This document shows positions 5,015 through 50,800 of a stretch of 64,000 bases of DNA, piece by piece. Origin of the DNA: a virus; IMG/VR virus record IMGVR_UViG_3300036770_004723, positions 124,001-188,000 of that record; one strand, written 5' to 3'. The notes under the pieces were generated by a model, which saw only the letters and a program-made list of their open reading frames with translations, did no database searches and was not told the origin of the DNA. How positions within the stretch are numbered: position 1 is the stretch's first letter; the number at the start of each line of letters is the position of its first letter. Position numbers and translations under genes: made by a program.

Positions 5015-6169
5015 ATGGCTGTTAAAAAATCTACAAGTAAAAAATCCAACATTGTATCCGAGAATCTTCCTGAAAAATATAGACCTGTTACATTAGATGA
5101 TCTTGTTGGTCAAGATTCAGCTGTGTCAATGATTAAAGGCTGGATCAAAAAGAAAAGATTTCCTTCAACTATCTTAATAAGTGGTACAACTGGTGCAGGT
5201 AAAACCACACTTGCACGTATGATCGCACGTTATATAAATTGCGAAAAGCATACATCTTGCGGCAAATGTGATTTTTGTAAGATAAGTAAAGAAGAGGTTT
5301 TTGATTTACTTGAAATCAACGCAGGTACAAACGGCAACATCGACGATGTTAGATCTCTTATTGAAAAAGCCAAAAGATTACCGACCTTCAATAAATATGT
5401 TGTTCTTATTGACGAGGCTCATTTACTTGGAGATAAAGCAGAAAGCGCTTTGCTTGTTCCGATAGAAAAACCTTCTAAAAATTCTATTTGGATACTTTGC
5501 ACAACAGACGTAGATAAAATAAAACCAACTGTTAAAAATCGTTGTGCGCATATTTCTCTGAAACCTGTTCCAGAAAAAGACATTGCCTTACGTTTATTGG
5601 ATATCTCTAAAAAAGAAAAATTCGAGGTAAAAGACAAAGAACTCTTTAAAAAATGCTTGACCAAGATCAGTGAACTTTCTTACGGCCAAGTAAGAAACGG
5701 CATTAGTATGCTGGATACATTAATGAGTCAAATTAACGGCGGTAGTAAATTAGATCTGAAAAACTTAGATCAATTAATTACTACTGCTAGTGATGAAGAT
5801 CTAAATCAAGTATGTGCCAATGTTTTACACGGTGTTTTAAGTCACGATTTAAAGGCAATTGTAAAAAACGTAAAACAGTGTAAAGAGCCTTTACGTTTGA
5901 TAATGAATTTACGTTTCTTAGTAGATAACATTATTGATTCTGATATAGGTATTTCAAAATTTACACCTAATATAACCAAAAGTTTTAATCAACTTGTTAC
6001 CAAATCTAAGATTAAATACAATATAGCCAGTTTAGTAAAAATTCAGTCTCTTTTAATTCAAGTACATTTACATATTGTGCAAGTTCCTTCTTATCCTGCC
6101 TCAGTAGGTCTTTACACTTCATTATGTGATCTTTGTGTTGACGATTACTTTAAAAAAGTTAAAGGATGA
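5015..6169 (+). CDS. DNA polymerase clamp loader subunit, DnaX-like AAA+ ATPase
   Basis: The protein (384 aa) opens the ring-shaped sliding clamp and loads it on primer-template DNA using ATP. Walker A is GTTGAGKT (57-64) and Walker B is LIDEAH (131-136), with sensor CTTD near 162-165 and an Arg-finger-like NRC (175-177). Four cysteines at 76, 82, 85 and 88 form the zinc-binding knuckle typical of bacterial gamma/tau subunits, so it looks more DnaX-like than T4 gp44-like. The C-terminal 150 residues fit the collar domain. It has no tau-type extension. Its partner clamp is at 32035. No small clamp-loader subunit was recognised. Confidence 0.9.
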   Translation: MAVKKSTSKKSNIVSENLPEKYRPVTLDDLVGQDSAVSMIKGWIKKKRFPSTILISGTTGAGKTTLARMIARYINCEKHTSCGKCDFCKISKEEVFDLLEINAGTNGNIDDVRSLIEKAKRLPTFNKYVVLIDEAHLLGDKAESALLVPIEKPSKNSIWILCTTDVDKIKPTVKNRCAHISLKPVPEKDIALRLLDISKKEKFEVKDKELFKKCLTKISELSYGQVRNGISMLDTLMSQINGGSKLDLKNLDQLITTASDEDLNQVCANVLHGVLSHDLKAIVKNVKQCKEPLRLIMNLRFLVDNIIDSDIGISKFTPNITKSFNQLVTKSKIKYNIASLVKIQSLLIQVHLHIVQVPSYPASVGLYTSLCDLCVDDYFKKVKG

Positions 6170-7424: not shown

Positions 7425-9770
7425 ATGCACAGACTTAATGCGTTTTCTGTTAAAAACGTTTTGACCTTTCAAGACACTACAATAGAGTTAGGTACAGAAC
7501 ATGGCTTGTATGTTATACAAGGACAAAACAAAGATAGCAGGTTAGCCAACAATACAAATGCCGTAGGTAAAAGCCGTTTATTTGCTGCTATACCCACAGT
7601 TTTATATGAAACAGATCCGTTATCTTTAAAGAAAAGAAACAAGAAAGATATTTTAAAATCCAAAACAAGCTGCATGTCATTGGATATTACTAGTCATGGA
7701 AAAGAGCGATTCCTTTTCCAACAAATGCCTAGTAACTATTTAGTACATAAATATGAAAACAGTAAATTCGTTAATATAAATGAAGCAGGAAAAGCTGTTA
7801 AATTGGAAATAGCTAGGAATTATATTTCAAAAGCATTTCCTATCTCAGAGTCATTATTTTACTCTACTTGTTATATTAGTGATCAGCGTAATTGTAATTT
7901 TTTAAATGCTACTTCAAGAGATCGCCTTGCATTTATAACCGATATTTTCGGTCTTGATGTTTACGATCAGTTAAGAAAATATTTTACTAAGAAGCTAGGT
8001 GAAGTAGCTAAAGCAGAAATTGAGTATCAAACTTTAGCCAAAGAATTGCTAGCAGCACAGACCAGACTGTCAGAACTTAATTGGTCTGATGTTAAATCGT
8101 CAAAATTAAAAAAATATAAAACAGAACAAGAAAATTTAAGAAACGATTTAACTAAGCGGTACTCGCGTCTTGGTGAGCTGAAACTTGCACGTACTAAAAG
8201 TGAAAAACTTGAGCAATTACTAGAACATAAAAAAACATTTAGTAAAGAAATAAAGATTCTTACAACAAAACAGGCAGAGCTTGAACTTAAGAATTCATCT
8301 TCTCAGTTGAAAATAGCTGAAATTTATGCAAACTATTTAGAAGATTTAACAGAGTATAAGCAGAGAAAAAAGAAGCTAAATCAAGAACTAGACGACCTAG
8401 AAAAATTAGATCTTACCGAAGAACAATTAGAGAAAAAACATGATGTTCTAACAAGCGAAATTGAGTCGTTGTATAAAATACAAGAAAGGTATCTTGCTCT
8501 AAAAGAAAACTATGATGAAAAAATAGCAGAGTACGAAAAGTATGTAAGACAGTCTAAAAAATTGCTAAGTGCTTTGTTGTCTACACCTACTGCAAAAAAA
8601 TTTAAATTAACTGAAAATTCCATTGACGATGTATTGCCTTTGATTCAAGAATCTTATGATATGGCACGTACAACAGTGTCAATTGCACGTAAGTTATCTG
8701 ACCACGATCATAAAGGAATGTGTGCCGTATGTGGATCTAGTACAACAACCAAAGATGTTAAAGCTCGTTTAAAATCTGCTGAAGCTTTAATAGAAGACCT
8801 TCAACCTTTAAAAGAATATCTTGCGTTAGATGAAGTTAAAAAGCCGAAAAAGGTGGAAGGAAAAGACCAAACCGATTTACTTAAATCGAAAAGACAAAAA
8901 CTTAAATCAATAACAAACGATCTACAACTGTCTAGAAAAATCAAGTCAATTAACGATAGAATAAAAGATTTAAAGAAACCTAAAGAGCCAAAGCATAAAC
9001 CTAACAAGTCACTTAAAGAACTTAAAGACTCGGTAAAGAACTTGGAGTCTTACGTTTCTTTGATGACACGTATTAAAGACATAGGGACAGTTTCATATGA
9101 CAAGAAACTATACAAGGAAACTCAAAATCGTATTTCATTACTTGAAAATAGAGTAAATGAATTAGAGACCTTTATACGAAAACTGGATTTAAGTAGGATA
9201 GAACATTCTAACTATTCGCAAATTGTAAAAGACTTGAGCTTTAAAGTAGCAGAAGTAGAGCCTTTATTGCGTGAAAGGGAAAAACTGAAAACTTTACAAA
9301 CAGCCTATTCTCCGAATAATTTAAAACTACAAGCTGCTGAACAAATTGTCAGTGAATTAGAAGACAGTTTAAATCGTTATAGTAGCCTTGTATTTTTGGA
9401 ACCTATGAAGTTTCAGATTCGTACCGTAAAAGATGGTATTAGCGCTACAGTAACACGTAACAACGGTGAAAGTAGCGATATAATTCATTTATCTGGTGCA
9501 GAAGCCAACTGTTTCCGTTTATTGTTTTTTTATAGTCTTGTACGTCTTTTACCTGAAAACAAACGTACAAATTTCTTAATATTAGATGAACCTGATAGTA
9601 GATGTAGTGCTGCAATTAGATCACATCTAATTCGTGAATTTTTACCTAACCTGAGAAAAGTAGTACCTCACGTCTTTTGGATAACACCTAAGAGTGTTCA
9701 TGATTTTCAAGATCATAAACTGCTTACTGTTATCAAGGAAAAAGGAGTATCTAGGTTAGAACTTACTTAA
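7425..9770 (+). CDS. SbcC/Rad50-like recombination ATPase (T4 gp46-type)
   Basis: This 781-residue SMC-like ATPase would work with the SbcD nuclease at 12928 to process DNA ends and drive recombination-dependent replication. The Walker A region has the conserved GQN (33-35) and NAVGKS (45-50), separated by an insertion. Two long coiled coils (about 170-430 and 440-650) flank a zinc hook CAVC (Cys433, Cys436). The signature LSGAE (689-693) departs from the usual LSGGE, and Walker B is LILDEPDS with Asp721 and Glu722. It lies 5 bases after a phosphoesterase gene and six genes before its expected partner. Confidence 0.9.
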   Translation: MHRLNAFSVKNVLTFQDTTIELGTEHGLYVIQGQNKDSRLANNTNAVGKSRLFAAIPTVLYETDPLSLKKRNKKDILKSKTSCMSLDITSHGKERFLFQQMPSNYLVHKYENSKFVNINEAGKAVKLEIARNYISKAFPISESLFYSTCYISDQRNCNFLNATSRDRLAFITDIFGLDVYDQLRKYFTKKLGEVAKAEIEYQTLAKELLAAQTRLSELNWSDVKSSKLKKYKTEQENLRNDLTKRYSRLGELKLARTKSEKLEQLLEHKKTFSKEIKILTTKQAELELKNSSSQLKIAEIYANYLEDLTEYKQRKKKLNQELDDLEKLDLTEEQLEKKHDVLTSEIESLYKIQERYLALKENYDEKIAEYEKYVRQSKKLLSALLSTPTAKKFKLTENSIDDVLPLIQESYDMARTTVSIARKLSDHDHKGMCAVCGSSTTTKDVKARLKSAEALIEDLQPLKEYLALDEVKKPKKVEGKDQTDLLKSKRQKLKSITNDLQLSRKIKSINDRIKDLKKPKEPKHKPNKSLKELKDSVKNLESYVSLMTRIKDIGTVSYDKKLYKETQNRISLLENRVNELETFIRKLDLSRIEHSNYSQIVKDLSFKVAEVEPLLREREKLKTLQTAYSPNNLKLQAAEQIVSELEDSLNRYSSLVFLEPMKFQIRTVKDGISATVTRNNGESSDIIHLSGAEANCFRLLFFYSLVRLLPENKRTNFLILDEPDSRCSAAIRSHLIREFLPNLRKVVPHVFWITPKSVHDFQDHKLLTVIKEKGVSRLELT

Positions 9771-9781
9771 AAGGAATATAC

Positions 9782-10672
9782 ATGAGTAAAACCTTAGTTA
9801 TTTATAACGCACATACTTTAGATGGACAAGCAGGTGCGTTAGCTGCTTATTATAAAATTGGTAAGCATAGTGAATTCATGGCATTTGATTATGGAAAATT
9901 AAGTGTCATGGATTACTTTATAAAAGGAACGTATTTAAAAGTATTGTATGTGATAGGATTACATTTGACAGCTAATGACATAGCTAGATTATGTCAGTAC
10001 GCACAAACAATTTGCTATATAGATCATGTTAATGTTGAATTACCTGAGACCATTAAGAATAAAGTAAAAATCATAAATATTCCTAATCGCTGTACTTGTG
10101 TTACTGCATGGGCACATTTCATGCCTACTCAAATGATACCTCAAATGTTTCATATAATTGAAGACGTTGTATTAGGTAAAAATGAAATAACAAACAGCAG
10201 ATCAGCATACGAAGGTTTGCGTTATCGACTTTTACAGTGTGAAGAAAATGCTTTTATAATGAATATGCAAGCGTTTCTACAAAATGATCCTACTGAGCTT
10301 ATCATGGATGGGCTTCATGTTGGATCTATGTTTAAAGTCATAGCTTCAAATTTAGCAGGTAATCATTCTAAGTCATCATTGTTAAATAGAGCAGTTGCTT
10401 GCATTAATGCACCTAAGTTATTTGGTTATTCTATATGTCATAATCTAATGCAAAAAGGTTATGACTATGTTTTGCTTTATTCTGACTGTTGTAATCAAAG
10501 TTATGTTTATAGAAGTTGGACAATAGCTGCTAAAAAAGATTTAAAAGTAGATGCAGCTAAAATAGCTTTACTCTTTAACGGTTTTGGTACTGAACGTTTC
10601 GCTGGATTTACTACAACCTCTATATTACGTGACCATGATATCATACATGAAGTAAATCGTTGTTTTATGTAA
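9782..10672 (+). CDS. DHH-family phosphoesterase-like protein, motifs degenerate
   Basis: The N-terminus has HTLDGQAGA (11-19), resembling the HxDxDG metal-binding start of DHH phosphoesterases such as oligoribonuclease NrnB. YIDH at 79-82 resembles the family's DHH motif, with Val replacing the second His. The expected aspartates between these motifs are not clear. It may therefore be a divergent nanoRNase/phosphodiesterase or an inactive homologue. At 296 aa it is in the family's size range. SD AAAAGGAA precedes ATG 9782. Its place behind SbcC suits a role in clearing small nucleotide products. Confidence 0.45.
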   Translation: MSKTLVIYNAHTLDGQAGALAAYYKIGKHSEFMAFDYGKLSVMDYFIKGTYLKVLYVIGLHLTANDIARLCQYAQTICYIDHVNVELPETIKNKVKIINIPNRCTCVTAWAHFMPTQMIPQMFHIIEDVVLGKNEITNSRSAYEGLRYRLLQCEENAFIMNMQAFLQNDPTELIMDGLHVGSMFKVIASNLAGNHSKSSLLNRAVACINAPKLFGYSICHNLMQKGYDYVLLYSDCCNQSYVYRSWTIAAKKDLKVDAAKIALLFNGFGTERFAGFTTTSILRDHDIIHEVNRCFM

Positions 10673-10673
10673 A

Positions 10674-10708
10674 ACTGTAAATATGATCGTATAAGGAGAG
10701 CGATCATG
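10674..10708 (+). promoter_or_regulatory. ACTGTAAATA motif plus hairpin enclosing the ribosome binding site
   Basis: ACTGTAAATA (10674-10683) abuts a perfect 7-bp stem, ATGATCG (10683-10689) / CGATCAT (10701-10707). The loop TATAAGGAGAG carries the Shine-Dalgarno sequence, and the 3' arm includes the AT of the start codon at 10706. The layout suggests translational control of the next gene. Confidence 0.6.
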
Positions 10709-11506
10709 CCTAGTTCTACATTTTTTGCTATAGCAGGTCACGCACCTGATGAATTAATAAAAGAGTTGCTACATATAGACAGTGCGCCCTATTACTACAC
10801 AGTTAAAGCCGGAGAACGTCTTAGTAAAAAAATAAATAAAAAATATATTATTTGCCTACGTACCGAAGATTTCGTACTTAACTACAAATTTTTAATCGGT
10901 ACAGGCAAAAAGATTTTTGTATTCGGATCTCCGCTTTTTTTCATGAACTACATGGGATTTACTTTTTTAGATTTTGAGATAGATGAAAAAGATTGCTCTA
11001 GGATACACATATTAGACAATTTAAATTTAAATTTGCTAAAAGATGCTGCATCGAGTCCTATTATAAAGCACGATGTTAGTTATTTTGAATGTGTTGTAGA
11101 AAAAGCAAAAGCAGGATCTATATTTGACAAACTTATGAGTTACATCTATAAGCTACCTGCTAAAACACATCAAAAGCCAGTTAAAAAACTTTGTTGTTTA
11201 TGTGTTAGGAATAATTGGAGCGCACCTAGACTTAAAAAAGAATTAAGTGACCTTACATCTATTATAAAAATAAGTTCTGAAATACAGAATGCTTTGACAG
11301 AGATATTAAACTCTTACACCGCAGTTAGATATAAGAATGCTTTTAAATTAATTAAATCTGAATCTGATGTACCTAAAGTAGCAGCAAATGCAGATTTGAA
11401 CCCTTACGAATTTATGTATATACTTAAGATGTTGGAAAAAGATAAAAAAGTAGAAAATCATACAGAAATAAGCATCGACAGTTATCTAGCTAATGAGAAG
11501 AAATAA
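10706..11506 (+). CDS. unknown protein (266 aa) with hairpin-controlled start
   Basis: The ATG at 10706 follows AAGGAGAG in a hairpin loop. The protein is mixed alpha/beta, with a paired cysteine segment CCLC near residue 168 followed by Lys-rich helices. The C-terminal helical part would suit a clamp-loader accessory subunit, but no motif confirms this. It overlaps the next gene in TAATG. It belongs to the run of unassigned genes between SbcC and SbcD. Confidence 0.7.
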   Translation: MPSSTFFAIAGHAPDELIKELLHIDSAPYYYTVKAGERLSKKINKKYIICLRTEDFVLNYKFLIGTGKKIFVFGSPLFFMNYMGFTFLDFEIDEKDCSRIHILDNLNLNLLKDAASSPIIKHDVSYFECVVEKAKAGSIFDKLMSYIYKLPAKTHQKPVKKLCCLCVRNNWSAPRLKKELSDLTSIIKISSEIQNALTEILNSYTAVRYKNAFKLIKSESDVPKVAANADLNPYEFMYILKMLEKDKKVENHTEISIDSYLANEKK

Positions 11507-12300
11507 TGAATTCTAGATTAGAGTACTTAGAAGTTTACAAAAGATCTATTAGTTTAATATTGCGTCATTTAATACATGTTTTATATTCATCTGCCAATCA
11601 AAAAAATGAAATCAGTTTAGACCCACAAAAGTTGTTGGAGTACCTTGCTTCTGTAACTGACGGACCTTTAGAAGCTGTATCTGGATCAGAACGAGTATTA
11701 ATAAGTGCTATTCTTGTAGGTTACTCTAAAAGTTTTTACGAACAGACTTACAATTATGTAAAAAACTTACCTATAGACCTTGAAGAATTTAATATAGAAT
11801 TTAATACAAAGGACACTTACGACTTTATTAAAAGTGTTAAAAGCATTAGAAAGTACTTTAATAGTCGAGTTGACTTTTCTGACACACTGAATAAATTGGT
11901 GGATATTGGCTTTATTTCAAAACACAAAGCATTCAGCCATGTTCAAAGCCTTGGACGCACGTATATGATTATACTTAGTCCTCAATTCGTACAAGACTTT
12001 TATTCTAAGTACTATTTAAGTCACATGGCTGTTGAAGGTAAAGAAATTAACATAGCTGATTATGTTGGATCCAACATAGCTAAAATAACTCTAGATCAAG
12101 GTGTAATAGAATTTGGTAAAGGCTCAGGTATAGGTGAATTTATTGAATTCTGCTCCAAATTCAAAAAAGAATGGGATAGGCAAGGAATCCCATTCTACAA
12201 AGCAGTTACAATAGCTTTGCTATGTAGTGAACCTAAAGGCGTTTTTTGTTATGTCAAAAACAACTGCTATAGATACCTACACTTGTTGGATGAATCATGA
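11506..12300 (+). CDS. unknown protein (264 aa)
   Basis: It starts in the TAATG overlap with the upstream stop and ends in ATGA shared with the next gene, so it is firmly inside a coupled operon. The sequence is helical at the N-terminus, with a Gly/Ser stretch (GKGSGIGEF) near residue 205 that does not match a P-loop. No family is recognised. Its location among recombination genes suggests a DNA-metabolism accessory. Confidence 0.7.
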   Translation: MNSRLEYLEVYKRSISLILRHLIHVLYSSANQKNEISLDPQKLLEYLASVTDGPLEAVSGSERVLISAILVGYSKSFYEQTYNYVKNLPIDLEEFNIEFNTKDTYDFIKSVKSIRKYFNSRVDFSDTLNKLVDIGFISKHKAFSHVQSLGRTYMIILSPQFVQDFYSKYYLSHMAVEGKEINIADYVGSNIAKITLDQGVIEFGKGSGIGEFIEFCSKFKKEWDRQGIPFYKAVTIALLCSEPKGVFCYVKNNCYRYLHLLDES

Positions 12301-12626
12301 AAATATTAAATTTAGCACATAACTTAAAAACAGAAAAAAATCCATTAATACAAAAATCCATTATTAATGAGTTTGGTGTGAAAAAAGTAGCCTTAGCCAA
12401 GGCATTGGCCGATTTGCTTCCTGATGATTTTGGCAGTACCTTAGTTTTTCCTACAAGTAAAGTTCTTATGTTATTTAAAATTTATTTACATGAACTGGAT
12501 CCAAAACATCTTATGCTTCCTGTTCAGGATATAACAGAAATGTTTAAGTTGATATCAGAGTTGAGTCAGACGAATGAAATATTTTTAGACTCATGTTCTA
12601 AAAACATAATAATCAAAAATGATTGA
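12297..12626 (+). CDS. unknown small protein (109 aa)
   Basis: The start overlaps the upstream stop as ATGA. The product is predicted to be mostly helical, with a helix-turn-helix-like run at residues 25-45 (a Gly-containing turn followed by VALAKALADLL), so DNA binding is possible but weakly supported. No other feature is seen. Confidence 0.6.
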   Translation: MKILNLAHNLKTEKNPLIQKSIINEFGVKKVALAKALADLLPDDFGSTLVFPTSKVLMLFKIYLHELDPKHLMLPVQDITEMFKLISELSQTNEIFLDSCSKNIIIKND

Positions 12627-12635
12627 AGGTAGAGT

Positions 12636-12953
12636 ATGAGCGAATCTTTTTCTTTAGTGCGATATAGTCCTTGCCGTAACAAAAGAAAAACATACTATTT
12701 CTCTATACTACCTAAAGACTTCAATGTTCCTAGTATTACATTCACTGACTATACTTACTCTAAGCTAATAGATGGAAAGTGGAAAATATTAAAAACATTT
12801 AGTGCCATAGGTCATCCAAGCAATTTAACAAATTTAGATGTCCCTGACTTTGTTTGGAAAATGGCCTACGCTCACTATATAAAATTCATAAAAAAGAATT
12901 TATTAATTCACCATCATAAGGGAACGTATGTTTCACGCAGTATTTTCAAGTGA
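12636..12953 (+). CDS. unknown small basic protein (105 aa)
   Basis: SD GAAGGTAGAG precedes ATG 12636. The protein is Lys/Tyr/Phe-rich with a basic patch at residues 14-19 and a His cluster near the C-terminus (IHHHKG). It overlaps the SbcD start by 26 bases, so it probably couples translation to SbcD. No family is evident. Confidence 0.6.
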   Translation: MSESFSLVRYSPCRNKRKTYYFSILPKDFNVPSITFTDYTYSKLIDGKWKILKTFSAIGHPSNLTNLDVPDFVWKMAYAHYIKFIKKNLLIHHHKGTYVSRSIFK

Positions 12954-13977
12954 CTGGCACTTTGATGGATTGAGAAATCATTATCCACAAGATCATGCTA
13001 GACGTACAATGCGAGAAGTAGAGAAAGCTTACCAGTACGCTATTAAAAAATCAATTCCTTATATGATTGTTGCTGGTGATATAAGTGACAGTTATAAGAT
13101 GACTCCTGAAAGTTTGAAAGCTCTTTTGGAGTTATTGATTAGACACGACGATCATGTTACAACCTACTATATGACAGGTAATCATGACTACGCCGATTCG
13201 ACAACTACGAGTTTGAATATATTTGAATCTATGGTAGAGTTTAAAATGTTAAAAAACTTCATTGTAGTTAAAGATCTTAAACAGATCAAACTCGATGGTG
13301 TAACTTTAAACTTCTGCCCATTTCCACATACTCAACTACAAAAAGTCAAAGCACCTTGCTTGAATATCATTCATCAAGATGTTGCAGGTGCCGTAGGTGA
13401 CAACGGCCGCGAATTAAAAGTAAAACATGATATTGAAATAGATTCTGACAAAGATTTCACTGTAAGCGGCCATATACATAAACATCAGTATCTTAAAAAA
13501 CGAAGATTGCTGTATAACGGATCTCTGTTTCAAAAGACCTTCGGCGAAGAGTTACCTAAAGGCTTTGTTGATCTAAAGGCTAAAGTAGTTAACGGAAAAT
13601 TGAAGGTAACTTGGGAATTTGTGGAGAATCGTCCTCATTTTGAGTTACGTACTATCAAGGTGCTAGATCAAAAACAATTCTCAGACCTTGAAGATGATCC
13701 AAATGTCCGTTATAGGATTTATGTTAGTGATGACGTCGTAGTTCCAGCTAGACTAAGGCAGCAGTATACTAATATTGATCAGCTGTGGTCTATAAAAGGG
13801 AAAAGTCTAACCAAGGATTTTGATGTAGAAAATTTGAATAGTGAATTAAAAGACTTACCTAAAATTGACCCTTTGCTTGGCTTAAAAGATTTTTTCAAAA
13901 AGAATAAAAAAACAAAATCTGATTTTTTGGAAGCTAAGCAGATTGTAAAGCAAGCACTCTCCGAATTAGGTTATTAA
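12928..13977 (+). CDS. SbcD/Mre11-like nuclease (T4 gp47-type)
   Basis: This 349-residue metallophosphoesterase is the expected nuclease partner of the SbcC-like ATPase at 7425. The motifs are SDWH (Asp9, His11), GDISDS (Asp51), GNHD (Asn85, His86), His149 and GHIH (His182, His184), all with normal spacing. The C-terminal 120 residues would form the capping and SbcC-contact region. It ends the operon and is followed by an AT-rich tract without a strong terminator hairpin. Separation of sbcC and sbcD by six genes is unusual, since they are commonly adjacent. Confidence 0.9.
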   Translation: MFHAVFSSDWHFDGLRNHYPQDHARRTMREVEKAYQYAIKKSIPYMIVAGDISDSYKMTPESLKALLELLIRHDDHVTTYYMTGNHDYADSTTTSLNIFESMVEFKMLKNFIVVKDLKQIKLDGVTLNFCPFPHTQLQKVKAPCLNIIHQDVAGAVGDNGRELKVKHDIEIDSDKDFTVSGHIHKHQYLKKRRLLYNGSLFQKTFGEELPKGFVDLKAKVVNGKLKVTWEFVENRPHFELRTIKVLDQKQFSDLEDDPNVRYRIYVSDDVVVPARLRQQYTNIDQLWSIKGKSLTKDFDVENLNSELKDLPKIDPLLGLKDFFKKNKKTKSDFLEAKQIVKQALSELGY

Positions 13978-14042: not shown

Positions 14043-14090
14043 GGTTCTCTGGAGAGTAAATAAACATTTAATTTTTGGAGGCCAAAAATG
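14043..14090 (+). promoter_or_regulatory. structured leader with GGA hairpins over the start of the next gene
   Basis: TTTTTGG (14072-14078) pairs with CCAAAAA (14082-14088) around the loop AGG. This buries the strong Shine-Dalgarno GGAGG and the first base of the ATG at 14088. Just upstream, CTC-TGGA-GAG near 14048-14057 forms a small hairpin with GGA in its loop, and it competes with pairing to GAGAG at 14040-14044. GGA in hairpin loops is the recognition pattern of CsrA/RsmA; that link is inference. Confidence 0.5.
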
Positions 14091-14759
14091 GCTACTACTG
14101 GTAAAGGTAAAGGTAAAGGCGGTACTGGTGCAGGTTCTCGCTTAAACGGTAACGTGAATGCTAAGACCACTAAGCAAACACAGAAGCAAAAAGCTGCTGC
14201 TGCTGGTCATGGTAAGAAAATGACAGCTGCTGAAAAAGCAAAAGCAGCAAAAGCAGCGGCCTTGCGTGATAGAAAGAAAACTCCTGCCGAGAAAAAATTC
14301 GAAGCAGAACGCGCTAAAGTTTTAGCTGAACGTCGTGCTAAAAAAGAAGGTAAAAAACCTGCTGCTGATAAAAAACCGGCTGCAACAAAAACTTTCGCTG
14401 ATCGTTTAAAAGCGTGGAAAGAACGCGGTAAGACAATTACTGATAGTTTCAAAAAACGTATGACGGATCTTAAAAAACGTCAGTCAGATGCTTTAGCTTT
14501 GCGTAAGAAAAAACAAGCTGAAGCGCGTGAACGTTTAGCTGAACGTTACAAAATGTCCAAAGAAAAATGGGAAAAACGTCAACCACAGAAAGCTCAAGCT
14601 CCAAAAGCTCCAGCAGGTAAAGCTCCAAAAGCTCCAGCAGGTAAAGCTCCAAAAGCTCCAAAAGCTCCAGCAGGTAAAGCTCCAAAAGCTCCAGCAGGTA
14701 AAGCTCCAAAAGCTCCAGCAGGTAAAGCTCCAGCAAGCGGCCGTTTCCCTAAAAAGTAA
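14088..14759 (+). CDS. histone-like Lys/Ala/Pro-rich repeat protein (223 aa)
   Basis: The protein is extremely basic. A Gly/Lys N-terminus (GKGKGKGG) is followed by Lys/Ala/Arg-rich helices at about 30-160, then a C-terminal tail of APKAPAGK-type repeats. This composition resembles histone H1 tails and bacterial histone-like proteins, so DNA condensation or binding to other polyanions is likely. It stands alone between an AT tract and a terminator, with a very strong SD (GGAGG), which suggests high, regulated expression. A virion-internal DNA-packing role is equally possible. Confidence 0.75.
   Translation: MATTGKGKGKGGTGAGSRLNGNVNAKTTKQTQKQKAAAAGHGKKMTAAEKAKAAKAAALRDRKKTPAEKKFEAERAKVLAERRAKKEGKKPAADKKPAATKTFADRLKAWKERGKTITDSFKKRMTDLKKRQSDALALRKKKQAEARERLAERYKMSKEKWEKRQPQKAQAPKAPAGKAPKAPAGKAPKAPKAPAGKAPKAPAGKAPKAPAGKAPASGRFPKK
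14593..14739 (+). repeat. 24-nt coding repeats (APKAPAGK), about 5-6 copies
   Basis: The unit GCTCCAAAAGCTCCAGCAGG plus TAAA is repeated nearly perfectly, with one extra partial unit in the middle. The lack of synonymous drift between copies implies recent expansion or gene conversion. Confidence 0.9.
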
Positions 14760-19383: not shown

Positions 19384-19391
19384 CTGCAAAA

Positions 19392-19422
19392 GAAGTGGGG
19401 CAATTTGCCCCACTTCGTTTTT
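19392..19422 (+). terminator. intrinsic terminator with 10-bp GC-rich stem
   Basis: GAAGTGGGGC (19392-19401) pairs perfectly with GCCCCACTTC (19407-19416) around AATTT and is followed by GTTTTT. It closes the unit that starts at 14875. Confidence 0.93.
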
Positions 19423-19441
19423 GTATTGAGGAAGTTAAAAT

Positions 19442-20173
19442 ATGTCTCGTGTGGAATTAGGTGATATTAAAAAACCGAAAATCAAACCTAAAGTCAAAAC
19501 AGTAGAACAACCTAAAGTCAAAAAGAAAATCAAACCTAAAGTCAAAAAGAAAATCAAACCTAAAGTCAAAACAGTAGAACAGCCTAAAGTCAAAACAGTA
19601 GAACAGCCTAAAGTCAAAAAGAAAATCAATAAAAATCTTGATAAAAAAACAGTTAAAGTCAAAAAGAAAAAAACTCAAAAACTAGATATATCCAGCGGCA
19701 AGGATCTTATTGCTGAAGGTAATGCTATTCTTGAACGCATGTCTGAAAATATTTTCGATGAAAACCGTATTTATTTAGATCAGTATAAACATATGTTTCA
19801 GAAGTTAGCTGCTATGAGTGAAATAGCTGAACATCAATACTTTGCTAAAAAACAAAGTCGTGATATTTATGCACTGATGAAACTTTATGATCAAATGCGA
19901 GAAGTTATTGCGGATCTTAAAGCGCTACAAAACGTAGGGCAATATATTGATGCAGTGATGGATGATGTAATCGAGCCTTTTGCTAAAACAGCTATACAAG
20001 CTTTGCTTGATTTAATTAGTTCTACTAACGCATATAGTAAACGAAATTTAGATCCTGAATTTTCTAAATTATTGGAAGAACAATTGAAATCTTTTGGTAA
20101 AATAGGTGGTATCATGTTGCAAGAAGGATATGATGCCGCAGTAGAAAATACTAGACGTATACTTGAAGGTTAA
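19442..20173 (+). CDS. Lys-rich repeat protein (243 aa) with helical C-terminal domain
   Basis: Residues 1-80 are built from PKVK(T/K) repeats (variants of PKVKTVEQ and KPKVKKKI), giving a long basic tail after RVELGD (3-8). Residues 90-243 form an acidic, helical domain. At DNA level the repeats are 24-nt units (19488-19630). The architecture (basic disordered arm plus helical body) resembles scaffold-associated or DNA-binding phage proteins. The RVELGD motif is shared with the proteins at 2933 and 14875. It is followed by an HNH gene; the function is unknown. Confidence 0.7.
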   Translation: MSRVELGDIKKPKIKPKVKTVEQPKVKKKIKPKVKKKIKPKVKTVEQPKVKTVEQPKVKKKINKNLDKKTVKVKKKKTQKLDISSGKDLIAEGNAILERMSENIFDENRIYLDQYKHMFQKLAAMSEIAEHQYFAKKQSRDIYALMKLYDQMREVIADLKALQNVGQYIDAVMDDVIEPFAKTAIQALLDLISSTNAYSKRNLDPEFSKLLEEQLKSFGKIGGIMLQEGYDAAVENTRRILEG

Positions 20174-46523: not shown

Positions 46524-47801
46524 ATGACAACTCGTTATATTGAACGTGGTAATTTTACTGATGTGCAGATTATGATTGCATCTTTAGTAAATGATATGCA
46601 AGCAAATGGATTTAAAGTTTTAAACATTAACAACCAACCGAACACTACACATCCTGTGCAATTAGATAGTACAGTAAAACGTTTATTATTGGCACCGACT
46701 ACAGTAGTAGATCCGTTAGCTATTGAAGATGGGGATAATACAGCACCTAACTATGCAAAACGTCAACCTTGGCGTTTAGTTATTGAAGTGAATTCTCAAG
46801 GTGAAGGCAGTATACCTATCGGTAATGATTTCATGGCAACTGCTGCGCGTGGTGTCATTAACTGGTATGTTTGTACTCCAACAAACATTATTGACGCTGA
46901 AGGAAATTTCAAAGTTGCGGTTTCTCGTGATGAACAAAAAGGAACTTCTCGCATTCAAGCACGTTGTGGTCTGCTTACAACTAATAGTGTGTTTCAGGCA
47001 CCTACATCAGTTGATGCAAAAAGTTGGATACATAAGTCTATTGTTGCAGGCACAGAAGGACAACAGTGGGGCGATACATTAAAAGATCGTTCATCTTTCC
47101 GTTATGAGCATTTTGGTTTCAACCTTAACCGTAGTGATGAAAACCGTGTACACGAACAAGCTGTTCCATTAACTTATGCTCTATCTATTACAGATCATGG
47201 TGTTGCATTCATGATGTGGACAGAAGCCCGTGACAATACAGGTGATCGTTTCCATTGGTGGACTGTTCAACGAATGGTAAACAAGGACACAGGTGCTACT
47301 ATTCTCGATGGAAAGTCGCCACTATTCTGTGTATTTAGCATGGTAGGTGGCGGTACTGTAGCCGGTAATCAAGGAGACAACTTAGGATTTGATGATCTGC
47401 TTGATGCACGCGATGATATTTATTATTTTATCGTCCGTGAAAGCGATGTACATACTCCAACTGTTCCAGTGACAGCTTGTTTTGATACCAATGATAGTAC
47501 ACGTATTATCAACGTTATGCAGCAAGTATCAATCAGTGAAGAAAATAAACTCACACTGAATATGATTAAAGGTATGAATACTCAACGTTATTCATATCCT
47601 CATGAATTGGACATGATTGCTTATTTATCTGGAGATGTTGTTTCTCAATTCGCTGAAGTACAGGTTCAAGTATATGGAGAAGAACAGCCTGCCGGTACAC
47701 CGCATAAGCGTGTGTACAAAGCATTGAAAGCAAACCGTATGAATAACAAAGGTATGCGGCTGTTATTCATTAAGTCAGGCGGCGATATTAATAACAATTA
47801 A
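46524..47801 (+). CDS. virion protein, paralogue of the previous gene (425 aa)
   Basis: I chose ATG 46524, preceded by GAGGAGA, because the longer frame runs into the previous gene. About 60 residues of insertions (for example in the middle near 190-230 and around 400) distinguish it from the copy at 45422, while the core motifs are retained (LAPTTVVDPLA, SITDHGVAF, KSPLFCVFS). A terminator follows, ending the tail-sheath unit. Confidence 0.65.
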   Translation: MTTRYIERGNFTDVQIMIASLVNDMQANGFKVLNINNQPNTTHPVQLDSTVKRLLLAPTTVVDPLAIEDGDNTAPNYAKRQPWRLVIEVNSQGEGSIPIGNDFMATAARGVINWYVCTPTNIIDAEGNFKVAVSRDEQKGTSRIQARCGLLTTNSVFQAPTSVDAKSWIHKSIVAGTEGQQWGDTLKDRSSFRYEHFGFNLNRSDENRVHEQAVPLTYALSITDHGVAFMMWTEARDNTGDRFHWWTVQRMVNKDTGATILDGKSPLFCVFSMVGGGTVAGNQGDNLGFDDLLDARDDIYYFIVRESDVHTPTVPVTACFDTNDSTRIINVMQQVSISEENKLTLNMIKGMNTQRYSYPHELDMIAYLSGDVVSQFAEVQVQVYGEEQPAGTPHKRVYKALKANRMNNKGMRLLFIKSGGDINNN

Positions 47802-47815
47802 TTAAAGTCAATACT

Positions 47816-47840
47816 AAGGCGGCCTTTGCGCCGCCTTTTT
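47816..47840 (+). terminator. intrinsic terminator
   Basis: GGCGGC (47818-47823) pairs with GCCGCC (47830-47835), flanked by AA and TT pairs, then a T-run. Confidence 0.92.
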
Positions 47841-47857
47841 CGTTCGGAGATCCTAAA

Positions 47858-50800
47858 ATGGTTTTATCTGATTTACGTCAAAACTTAAAAACAGGAAGTA
47901 GACATACTTCATTGTATTTTACACCTGATATAACTTTAATGTCTTTTGACATGATAGGAAATCTGTATACAAATTTATATGTTAGTGCAGGCCAGCTTAT
48001 AAAAAAAGATGGTACTGTAGTAAATCCTCAAGATAAAATTTCTTTAGGTGAAGAACTTAAAATAATATTAAATGCACCTAATCAGTTTGGATCCAGTGCC
48101 ACTAGTGTTATATACCAGAACAATACGGTAATAGGTTATTTCGCACTTACAACAGAAAACGAAGTATTTTATAGCTATGACCCTAGATACAATGATTTGC
48201 TGTCAGTACAAGTAGTTCCTGAGATCGATTGGTTACTTGATTCACACAAAGAACTAAAGGCTTTTGATTTTGATGGCAATATAGTAAATAGCTATGATTT
48301 AAATCAACAACCTACTAATAGGTTAAGTGACTTTAATACAGTTGTACTTGATTACCATAGAAATATGGCACAAGTTTTTGATGTACAAAACAAACTTGTT
48401 GCAAAAACATTATCAGGTAATAAACCTACAAGTGCCTCCAGTTTATACGCACAAAATAGAATTCTACAGTGTACAGCCATAGCATTTAATGGTGATAGTC
48501 AAATTTGCTTATACGATCAATTCTTCTCTAAATTTCTTACCTTAAATTTAGCTAATGTTATTGGTGTATATTTTTTCAATAATGTGCTGTATGCTTGGGC
48601 CAAAGACTCTAAAGTTTTAAACACATATACATTTAATGAGTTGGTTTTGGTAGGGCAGTCAACTTTACAATTCGACAATTTTATTCAGTCTGTTGTAGGT
48701 TCATCTAGTTTGTTTGTATTAAATGGCAATCGTTTATCTGATTTAGCCAATAATACTTTGCTTCAAATAGATAATGCACGTAACGCTGTTATTGAATCTA
48801 ATAATATGTATGTGACACATGGAGCTAAATCATATATTACTCAAATTAATTTAAGTGATTTCAGTAATACCAGAATTAATATTCCAAATGCTGCTTTCTT
48901 GGACTCTATATGTGTGCAAGCTGGTGGACGTATTTATATAAGTGATATCGAAGCTAAAAAAATCTACGCTCGTGGTCAATTTAACCAAGATTGGGAATTG
49001 GACTTCCGTGCCTTTGGTTTAGTGTTAGGGGATCAAATTTATGCGCTAGATACGTACACTAATATTCCAAGTAAAATAGACATTGACGTATTAAAATATC
49101 AAATTGACGCCACAAATTTTTTGAACATACAGGACGTTCCTTTAGGTTCTTTAGGTACAACAGGAAATATTCGAGTATTAAATACAAATCGTTCACTGCC
49201 TGTACGTTTGTTTCCTCAGCAGCAAAATCTAAAATTGCAAGTAAATGGAGTAACTGTACCTAATACTTATATTTTAAATTCTAATGATGTGGTTACAGTA
49301 GTCTATGATTATGACTTACCTTTACCTAGTATGTTTGTTGGTATAGCCATTGATCAGCAAGTGTTCGAACTTAATTTGTTTTTAGATGACAGCCGTATTG
49401 TACCTTTAGGCTTTAAATTTACCCCTGTTATTAATGCTGTACCTGATTCAAATGTTTTAAGTAATGTCATAACTATTACGGCACTTACAAATCCGGTTAC
49501 AGTAACTTTAGATAAAGGCAGTATAATATTAAACGGTGTGGATGTAGGAAGCACTGCTTTAATTTCAAATAACGATGAATTCGGTATCAAAATAAAAGCA
49601 GATTCTATGTTCTGCACTACAAAAATAGCAAATATAACTATTGAAGACAGGTTTACCTCAGTTTTCAGTGTTACCACTATTTCTGAATTGCCTGATGATT
49701 CTGATTTACCTAGACCTCAACTTAGTTTTGAAACACAGTACGACAAACCTCTAGGATCTACAGTATATAGCAACGAACTTATTTTTGACACAATAAATTT
49801 TGAACCTACTGAATTTACTATACCAGAAATTTATAACGCTTCGTTTTTGGTGAATGGTGTAAATGTAGGCAAGAAGCATTTAATAAAAAATAATGATGCT
49901 GTTCGTATAGTACTAGACTGTAGCTATAACTATGATACTGCCCATTTTGTACCAATAAATTCTTGCTATAGTGTATACGGATTCACGGTGTATACTATAG
50001 GTGATATAATGCCAGATTCTTTTGGTTTTGGTACAATACAAGACGCCAACATAAAAGATTATTTAGTAAGTGATTTAGCTTATTTTACAGGTATAGGGAA
50101 CAATGTTAAAGTTCCGGTAATAATTCCTTACGGTGTATTGTTAAGACACAACGGCCAATACGTTACTTACGAATCACTAAAAGATTGGCGTAATATGCCA
50201 CTAAAAGACCAGGTTGTCATCTTAACTATGTCTAATAATGATACTCTTCAACTTGAAGGTTATCCAAGACCTATACAAGGAATTTATAACAGAATACCTT
50301 TGTATGTAGGTGGCCGTGCTGGATATTGGAATATTAATACTCACTCTGTCGCAGATACAAAACAAATTGATTTAAAACTTGATCAAATACAAGCCTACAA
50401 CTTAATTTATGATGATTTAACTAAAGATTATTTTATAAGCGTAGTGAAAGACGTTGAGGTCGTACACAGAAAAACTGCGGAAATCGAAACAAATTCTACT
50501 AAAGTAACTTCAGGCAAAATCCTTAACCTAGAAGACTTTAAGACTATTTCACTAGCTGCTTCAAATAAAAAAGTAGACAATTTACTTACTATAAACGTGT
50601 TAAACAGACTATTGACTGTTGACCATGACTTACCTTTATACACATATAATTCTGTAGTTCAAATTGAAAGAGATTTAGATGTTTTTGAAAATAAATCGAA
50701 TGTATCTACGTTTGAACATATTAAAGATCTGTACGCTGTTACACCTAATCAATTTTATTTATACAGAGATCTAAATGCGTCAACCATTAAAAGTGTAGCA

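Follow-up and report, generated by a model that had tools for sequence, protein, structure and literature searches.

The window analyzed here is a 64-kb stretch corresponding to positions 124001 to 188000 of a viral record of 286,584 bases. It carries a DNA repair block in which the genes are ordered as a phosphoesterase, SbcC, a DHH phosphoesterase, a gene starting at position 10706 (hereafter, the 10706 gene), three small genes, and SbcD. The product of the 10706 gene recovered no match in Pfam, its AlphaFold model is weak (mean pLDDT, 60.8), and the best Foldseek hit (E = 0.039) is not interpretable. No terminator-like site was found in the region from 9700 to 11600, which includes the junction of the DHH phosphoesterase gene and the 10706 gene. 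The features of the locus are collected in the table.

Table. Features at the start of the 10706 gene, in window coordinates
Feature	Position	Strand	Basis
DHH phosphoesterase gene, upstream; source of read-through RNA	9782..10672	+	phrog_4771, E 1.3e-19
Predicted promoter element ACTGTAAATA, at a T4-late-like -10 position and one base past the upstream stop codon	10674..10683	+	recurrence, conservation
5' arm of stem, ATGATCG	10683..10689	+	sequence, RNA fold
Predicted transcription start (approximate)	10689	+	T4 geometry; G in 14/30 at motif position 16
Loop TATAAGGAGAG, containing Shine-Dalgarno AAGGAG	10690..10700	+	sequence; SD mean pairing 0.03-0.05 (read-through fold)
3' arm of stem, CGATCAT, including the AT of the start codon	10701..10707	+	sequence; AUG mean pairing 0.91-0.95 (read-through fold)
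10706 gene, 266 aa, phrog_18876, function unknown	10706..11506	+	PHROGs, E 1.1e-26

An earlier note on this DNA described a perfect 7-bp stem with the Shine-Dalgarno (SD) sequence in its loop and a 3' arm running into the ATG, and all of these elements are present between 10683 and 10708. The stem spans 10683 to 10707, the first two bases of the start codon (10706 to 10708) lie inside its 3' arm, and the spacing of 7 nt between the SD and the start is normal. The note also placed a promoter-like motif directly before the hairpin; the motif is there, but it is not merely adjacent, as base 10683 is shared, being the last A of ACTGTAAATA and also where the 5' arm begins. The RNA fold of 10670 to 10730 is unremarkable (-10.9 kcal/mol; z = -1.18; 28 of 200 shuffles equally good). 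The extended read-through fold of 10661 to 10726, which contains outer helices formed from the region of the upstream stop codon and codons 2 to 6, scored better (-15.5; z = -3.31; 1 of 200 shuffles equally good). When 57 crudely called gene starts were ranked by their folds in a separate run, the 10706 gene came third (z = -2.71), a value reached by 3.3% of 150 random windows and thus expected for about 1.9 of the 57 starts. Two of the highest folds in this ranking probably stem from strong terminator-like hairpins seen in the sequence immediately 5' of gene starts, at 19390 to 19442 and 47800 to 47858. Between 10 and 42 C, the predicted stability of the 10706 hairpin declines gradually from -13.0 to -6.6 kcal/mol. 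An RNA thermometer was rejected, given that at 37 C the loop leaves the SD unpaired and that the shift in stability is gradual rather than sharp.

We then evaluated how often such a stem would arise by chance, counting perfect stems of at least 7 bp that enclose the SD and reach the start codon. In a simulation, 0.75% of genes had such a stem, giving an expectation of 0.43 for 57 genes, and swapping the real upstream regions among the 41 genes with an SD gave an expectation of 0.53, against 1 seen. With the threshold lowered to at least 6 bp, 5 of the 41 genes in the window qualified versus 1.93 expected, two of the five being doubtful TTG starts. For the 10706 gene alone, none of 40 swapped upstream regions yielded a stem of at least 6 bp, a result that we count against the chance reading. 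The stem is thus real, yet not beyond chance for one 64-kb window. Elsewhere in the window, at 14060 to 14095, a TTTTTGG-AGG-CCAAAAA inverted repeat lies over the SD of a lysine/glycine-rich repeat protein encoded from 14088; this repeat is absent from the orthologous leader in L001.

The ACTGTAAATA element, which the earlier note had read as promoter-like, held up well. The 286,584-bp record contains 20 copies of it, against no copy of its reversed control, and ACTGTAAATH occurs 32 times in one relative (G001; reversed control, 2) and 19 times in another (G002; reversed control, 0). In the window, AACTGTAAAT was found 5 times versus 0.55 in shuffles, and one-mismatch matches to the shorter ACTGTAAAT were at chance level (36 versus 38.0), the signal residing in the longer exact motif. 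Only three of the six plus-strand copies of CTGTAAATA in the window are intergenic by crude gene calls, so that some of these are probably chance or internal occurrences. Of the 71 matches recovered by the motif searches in the three records, 67 were examined (4 in G002 were left out), and removal of near-duplicates left 52 sites. By an automatic rule, 30 of these 52 are followed, 20 to 53 nt in the 3' direction, by a start codon with SD-like bases, and the other 22 were dropped. The aligned sites give the consensus WACTGTAAATM, the last base being A or C; a second element, GTATAA, after the motif is not claimed, the column information there being low (0.06 to 0.56 bits). Sigma-70-type hexamers in 9700 to 11600 number 8 versus 10.7 in shuffles. 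Together with its retention at the orthologue (see below), this sequence evidence makes ACTGTAAATA a well-supported candidate for a phage promoter belonging to a recurring ACTGTAAATM family.

Eight of the proteins encoded downstream of the element were tested, and five of them are a clamp loader, a DNA polymerase, an exonuclease, a portal protein, and an RNA polymerase sigma factor (phrog_17569); two others hit families without an assigned function, and the last gave no hit. What is useful in this analysis is the predicted promoter element itself, which is strand-specific, recurs in three related jumbo-phage records, and precedes genes for replication, packaging, and a sigma factor. At locus L014 (G000, motif 116610-116619), ACTGTAAATA lies 40 nt before the sigma factor gene (phrog_17569, E = 4e-107), a placement compatible with possible self-activation of that gene. 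No RNA polymerase of the Rpb2 family was found in the three records. Among the literature matches listed, represented by titles and the beginnings of abstracts, we found no published account of the ACTGTAAATA element, which does not establish its absence from print.

A usable orthologue of the 10706 gene, 52% identical and with the same gene order, is present in two related records only (L001 and L002), whose sequences at this gene hardly differ and effectively constitute one orthologue group. The ATG at 10706 is the correct start codon, since the orthologous protein has the same beginning, MP. In the orthologous leader, ACTGTAAATC, an instance of the ACTGTAAAT motif, directly follows the upstream stop codon and lies 34 nt before the ATG (32 nt here), and the stem is absent. 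The search for the same layout in relatives that the earlier note proposed returned a divided answer in this one informative group, the promoter motif being kept and the stem not. Protein scans of viral contigs with the 10706 gene recovered L001 and L002 alone, and no closer relative was found by scans of viral contigs with the DHH and SbcC proteins encoded upstream or by a scan of genome contigs with the 10706 gene; a megablast search of 8500 to 13500 against phages gave no match. More distant homologues (26 to 28% identity) in Alexandravirus and PaBG have start codons that lie either 3 nt past the upstream gene or within it, and thus no intergenic leader by which the layout could be tested. 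The earlier note had taken loss of the stem in related phages as refuting; since the T4 e hairpin is also missing in distant T4 relatives, according to an excerpt of PMC3014915, non-conservation is not a full refutation.

The position of the promoter element bears directly on which RNAs contain the hairpin. The T4 TATAAATA element occupies -13 to -6, as given in an excerpt of PMC1524935, and TGTAAATA placed in the same way would put the start of transcription at 10689, where the 5' arm ends. At motifs with an ATG only 24 to 25 nt away, SD-like bases begin already at about position 14 to 16, so that the start is unlikely to be much further downstream. With a start at about 10689, the mRNA made from the promoter would lack the 5' arm, and the stem would form only in read-through RNA. 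The earlier note's proposal of a compact translation switch in a gene with almost no other leader sits badly with this geometry, as the predicted start would remove the 5' arm from the gene's own mRNA.

Opening the ribosome-binding site (RBS) of the 10706 gene is predicted to cost 11.3 kcal/mol in the read-through RNA versus 5.5 kcal/mol in the promoter-started RNA. The predicted fold of the latter is not distinctly open (mean pairing of 0.62 for the AUG and 0.68 for the SD). Only 1 of 23 swapped upstream regions gave a difference as high as this one (5.74 kcal/mol), and the same difference at the orthologue is -1.1. We extended these folding tests to the 24 promoters with a start at least 30 nt away, dropping 6 of the 30, and found no excess of RBS sequestration in the set as a whole (mean difference, 1.89 versus 1.66 with swapped upstream regions; P = 0.26). 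Complementarity of at least 7 bp between the promoter segment and the RBS was present in 3 of the 24 versus 2.9% of swaps (P = 0.019), two of the three being other genes in the relative G001 (L029 and L188). Both tests were chosen during the work.

We consider it probable (roughly 0.62) that the locus has an ordinary promoter and RBS, across whose transcription start an inverted repeat has arisen mostly by chance. The functional element would be the ACTGTAAATM-family promoter directly after the upstream stop codon, supplying the 10706 gene with its own mRNA, whose leader of about 17 nt would carry AAGGAG. The inverted repeat would straddle the start of transcription, so that this mRNA would be free of the described hairpin, and the stem would be carried solely by RNA read through from the SbcC and DHH genes. 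In that RNA the AUG would be paired and the SD exposed in the loop, and initiation would be dampened at most. Counted against this reading are the z score of the extended fold, the failure of all 40 swaps to reproduce the stem, the complementarity at 3 of the 24 promoters, and the pairing predicted in the promoter-started RNA.

Some of these observations lend weight to a selected timing switch like those of T4 gene e and I-TevI, in which the read-through hairpin would hide the AUG until the ACTGTAAATA promoter yields free mRNA. The promoter element and the predicted start overlap the 5' arm, no terminator was found upstream, the opening costs differ in the appropriate direction by an amount that swaps seldom match, the whole read-through fold scores well against shuffles, and there are precedents in T4 e, 49, soc, and I-TevI (PMC3014915 and PMC2988022, in excerpt). 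However, the difference of 5.7 kcal/mol falls well short of the 12.6 to 13.5 kcal/mol that the same calculation gives for T4 e and 49, the promoters as a set do not exceed their swapped controls, the orthologue lacks both the stem and the difference, and the SD remains free. As the mean-difference and complementarity tests disagree, we regard such a switch as a live, but not favored, and on balance unlikely alternative.

Two further readings appear far less probable. A leader hairpin in the gene's own mRNA, presenting the SD and hiding the AUG until opened by a protein, temperature, or the ribosome, would account for the loop and stem pairing of the read-through fold and accords with the gradual loss of stability on warming, but the promoter's own mRNA should begin where the 5' arm ends, the structure is not conserved, and the hairpin matched no Rfam family at gathering thresholds; we deem this very improbable. 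Hardly more can be said for the 25-bp dyad as a DNA operator to which a repressor would bind at the transcription start: by sequence, its center (about 10695) is near the predicted start, but the six-base core dyad TGATCG/CGATCA, with a spacing of 6 to 18, occurs in only two places in the whole record, the other being 162774-162795, and once in each of two relatives, where it is not at the orthologous gene.

Comparable layouts were observed in the relative G001. At L188 (G001:248990-249290), which has a ACTGTAAATC promoter, the TAAATCT of the promoter is perfectly complementary to an AGATTTA overlapping the RBS and AUG, and the predicted opening cost is 13.5 kcal/mol in read-through RNA versus 1.6 in promoter-started RNA, a difference reached by 0 of 23 swaps; it is the best T4 e-like candidate seen. 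At L029 (motif 3112), GTAAATCCT of the promoter and AGGATTTAC at the RBS are complementary; the gene that follows has 384 aa, the same length as the window's clamp loader gene (at 5015), which has no such repeat. At L041 (motif 110006), GTTGG, an 11-nt loop with AAGGAG, CCAAC, and then ATG reproduce the layout at 10706 with a stem of only 5 bp. One might conjecture, as a rather improbable generalization, that ACTGTAAATM promoters form a class peculiar to this jumbo-phage group, which the phrog_17569 sigma factor may recognize and which at some genes lies in the 5' arm of hairpins hiding the RBS. If so, one short sequence (at the 10706 gene and at L029 and L188 in the relative) would both silence read-through RNA and start free mRNA, and logic like that of T4 e would have been reached independently with a different sigma factor. 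By itself, the hairpin is of little importance; a general caution is that where a promoter occupies one arm of a leader hairpin, the hairpin may be missing from the mRNA of the gene itself.

Among known systems, T4 genes 25 and 38 have a helix between the SD and the AUG that aids initiation (PMC3014915, in excerpt). The hairpin at 10706 likewise lies within the translation initiation region, but unlike theirs it has the SD in its loop at the usual spacing. T4 e, soc, 49, and I-TevI have hairpins of the read-through kind, the 5' arm of which contains a late promoter, as described in excerpts of PMC3014915 and PMC2988022, and for e the translation of read-through RNA was measured to be down 100-fold (PMC3014915, in excerpt). 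The present locus resembles these in having its promoter immediately 5' of the RBS with the predicted start inside the 5' arm and a start codon (the AUG only) predicted to pair in read-through RNA, and, as for e, the structure is absent in distant relatives. It differs from the e type in that the stem is not kept even in a 52% identical orthologue, the SD is in the loop rather than in the helix, the effect is predicted rather than measured and weaker than those computed for e and 49, and the promoter class is not that of T4. As with T4 late promoters, a short AT-rich element stands right before gene starts, and TGTAAATA aligns with TATAAATA; in contrast to them, a conserved ACTG precedes it, the last base is A or C, and the element departs from the TATAAATA octamer. 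Searches for a gp55-like protein in all three records, which may be incomplete, one having been run without a positive control, recovered no match to T4 gp55, phrog_234, or phrog_12791. A sigma factor of a different family, phrog_17569, is present.
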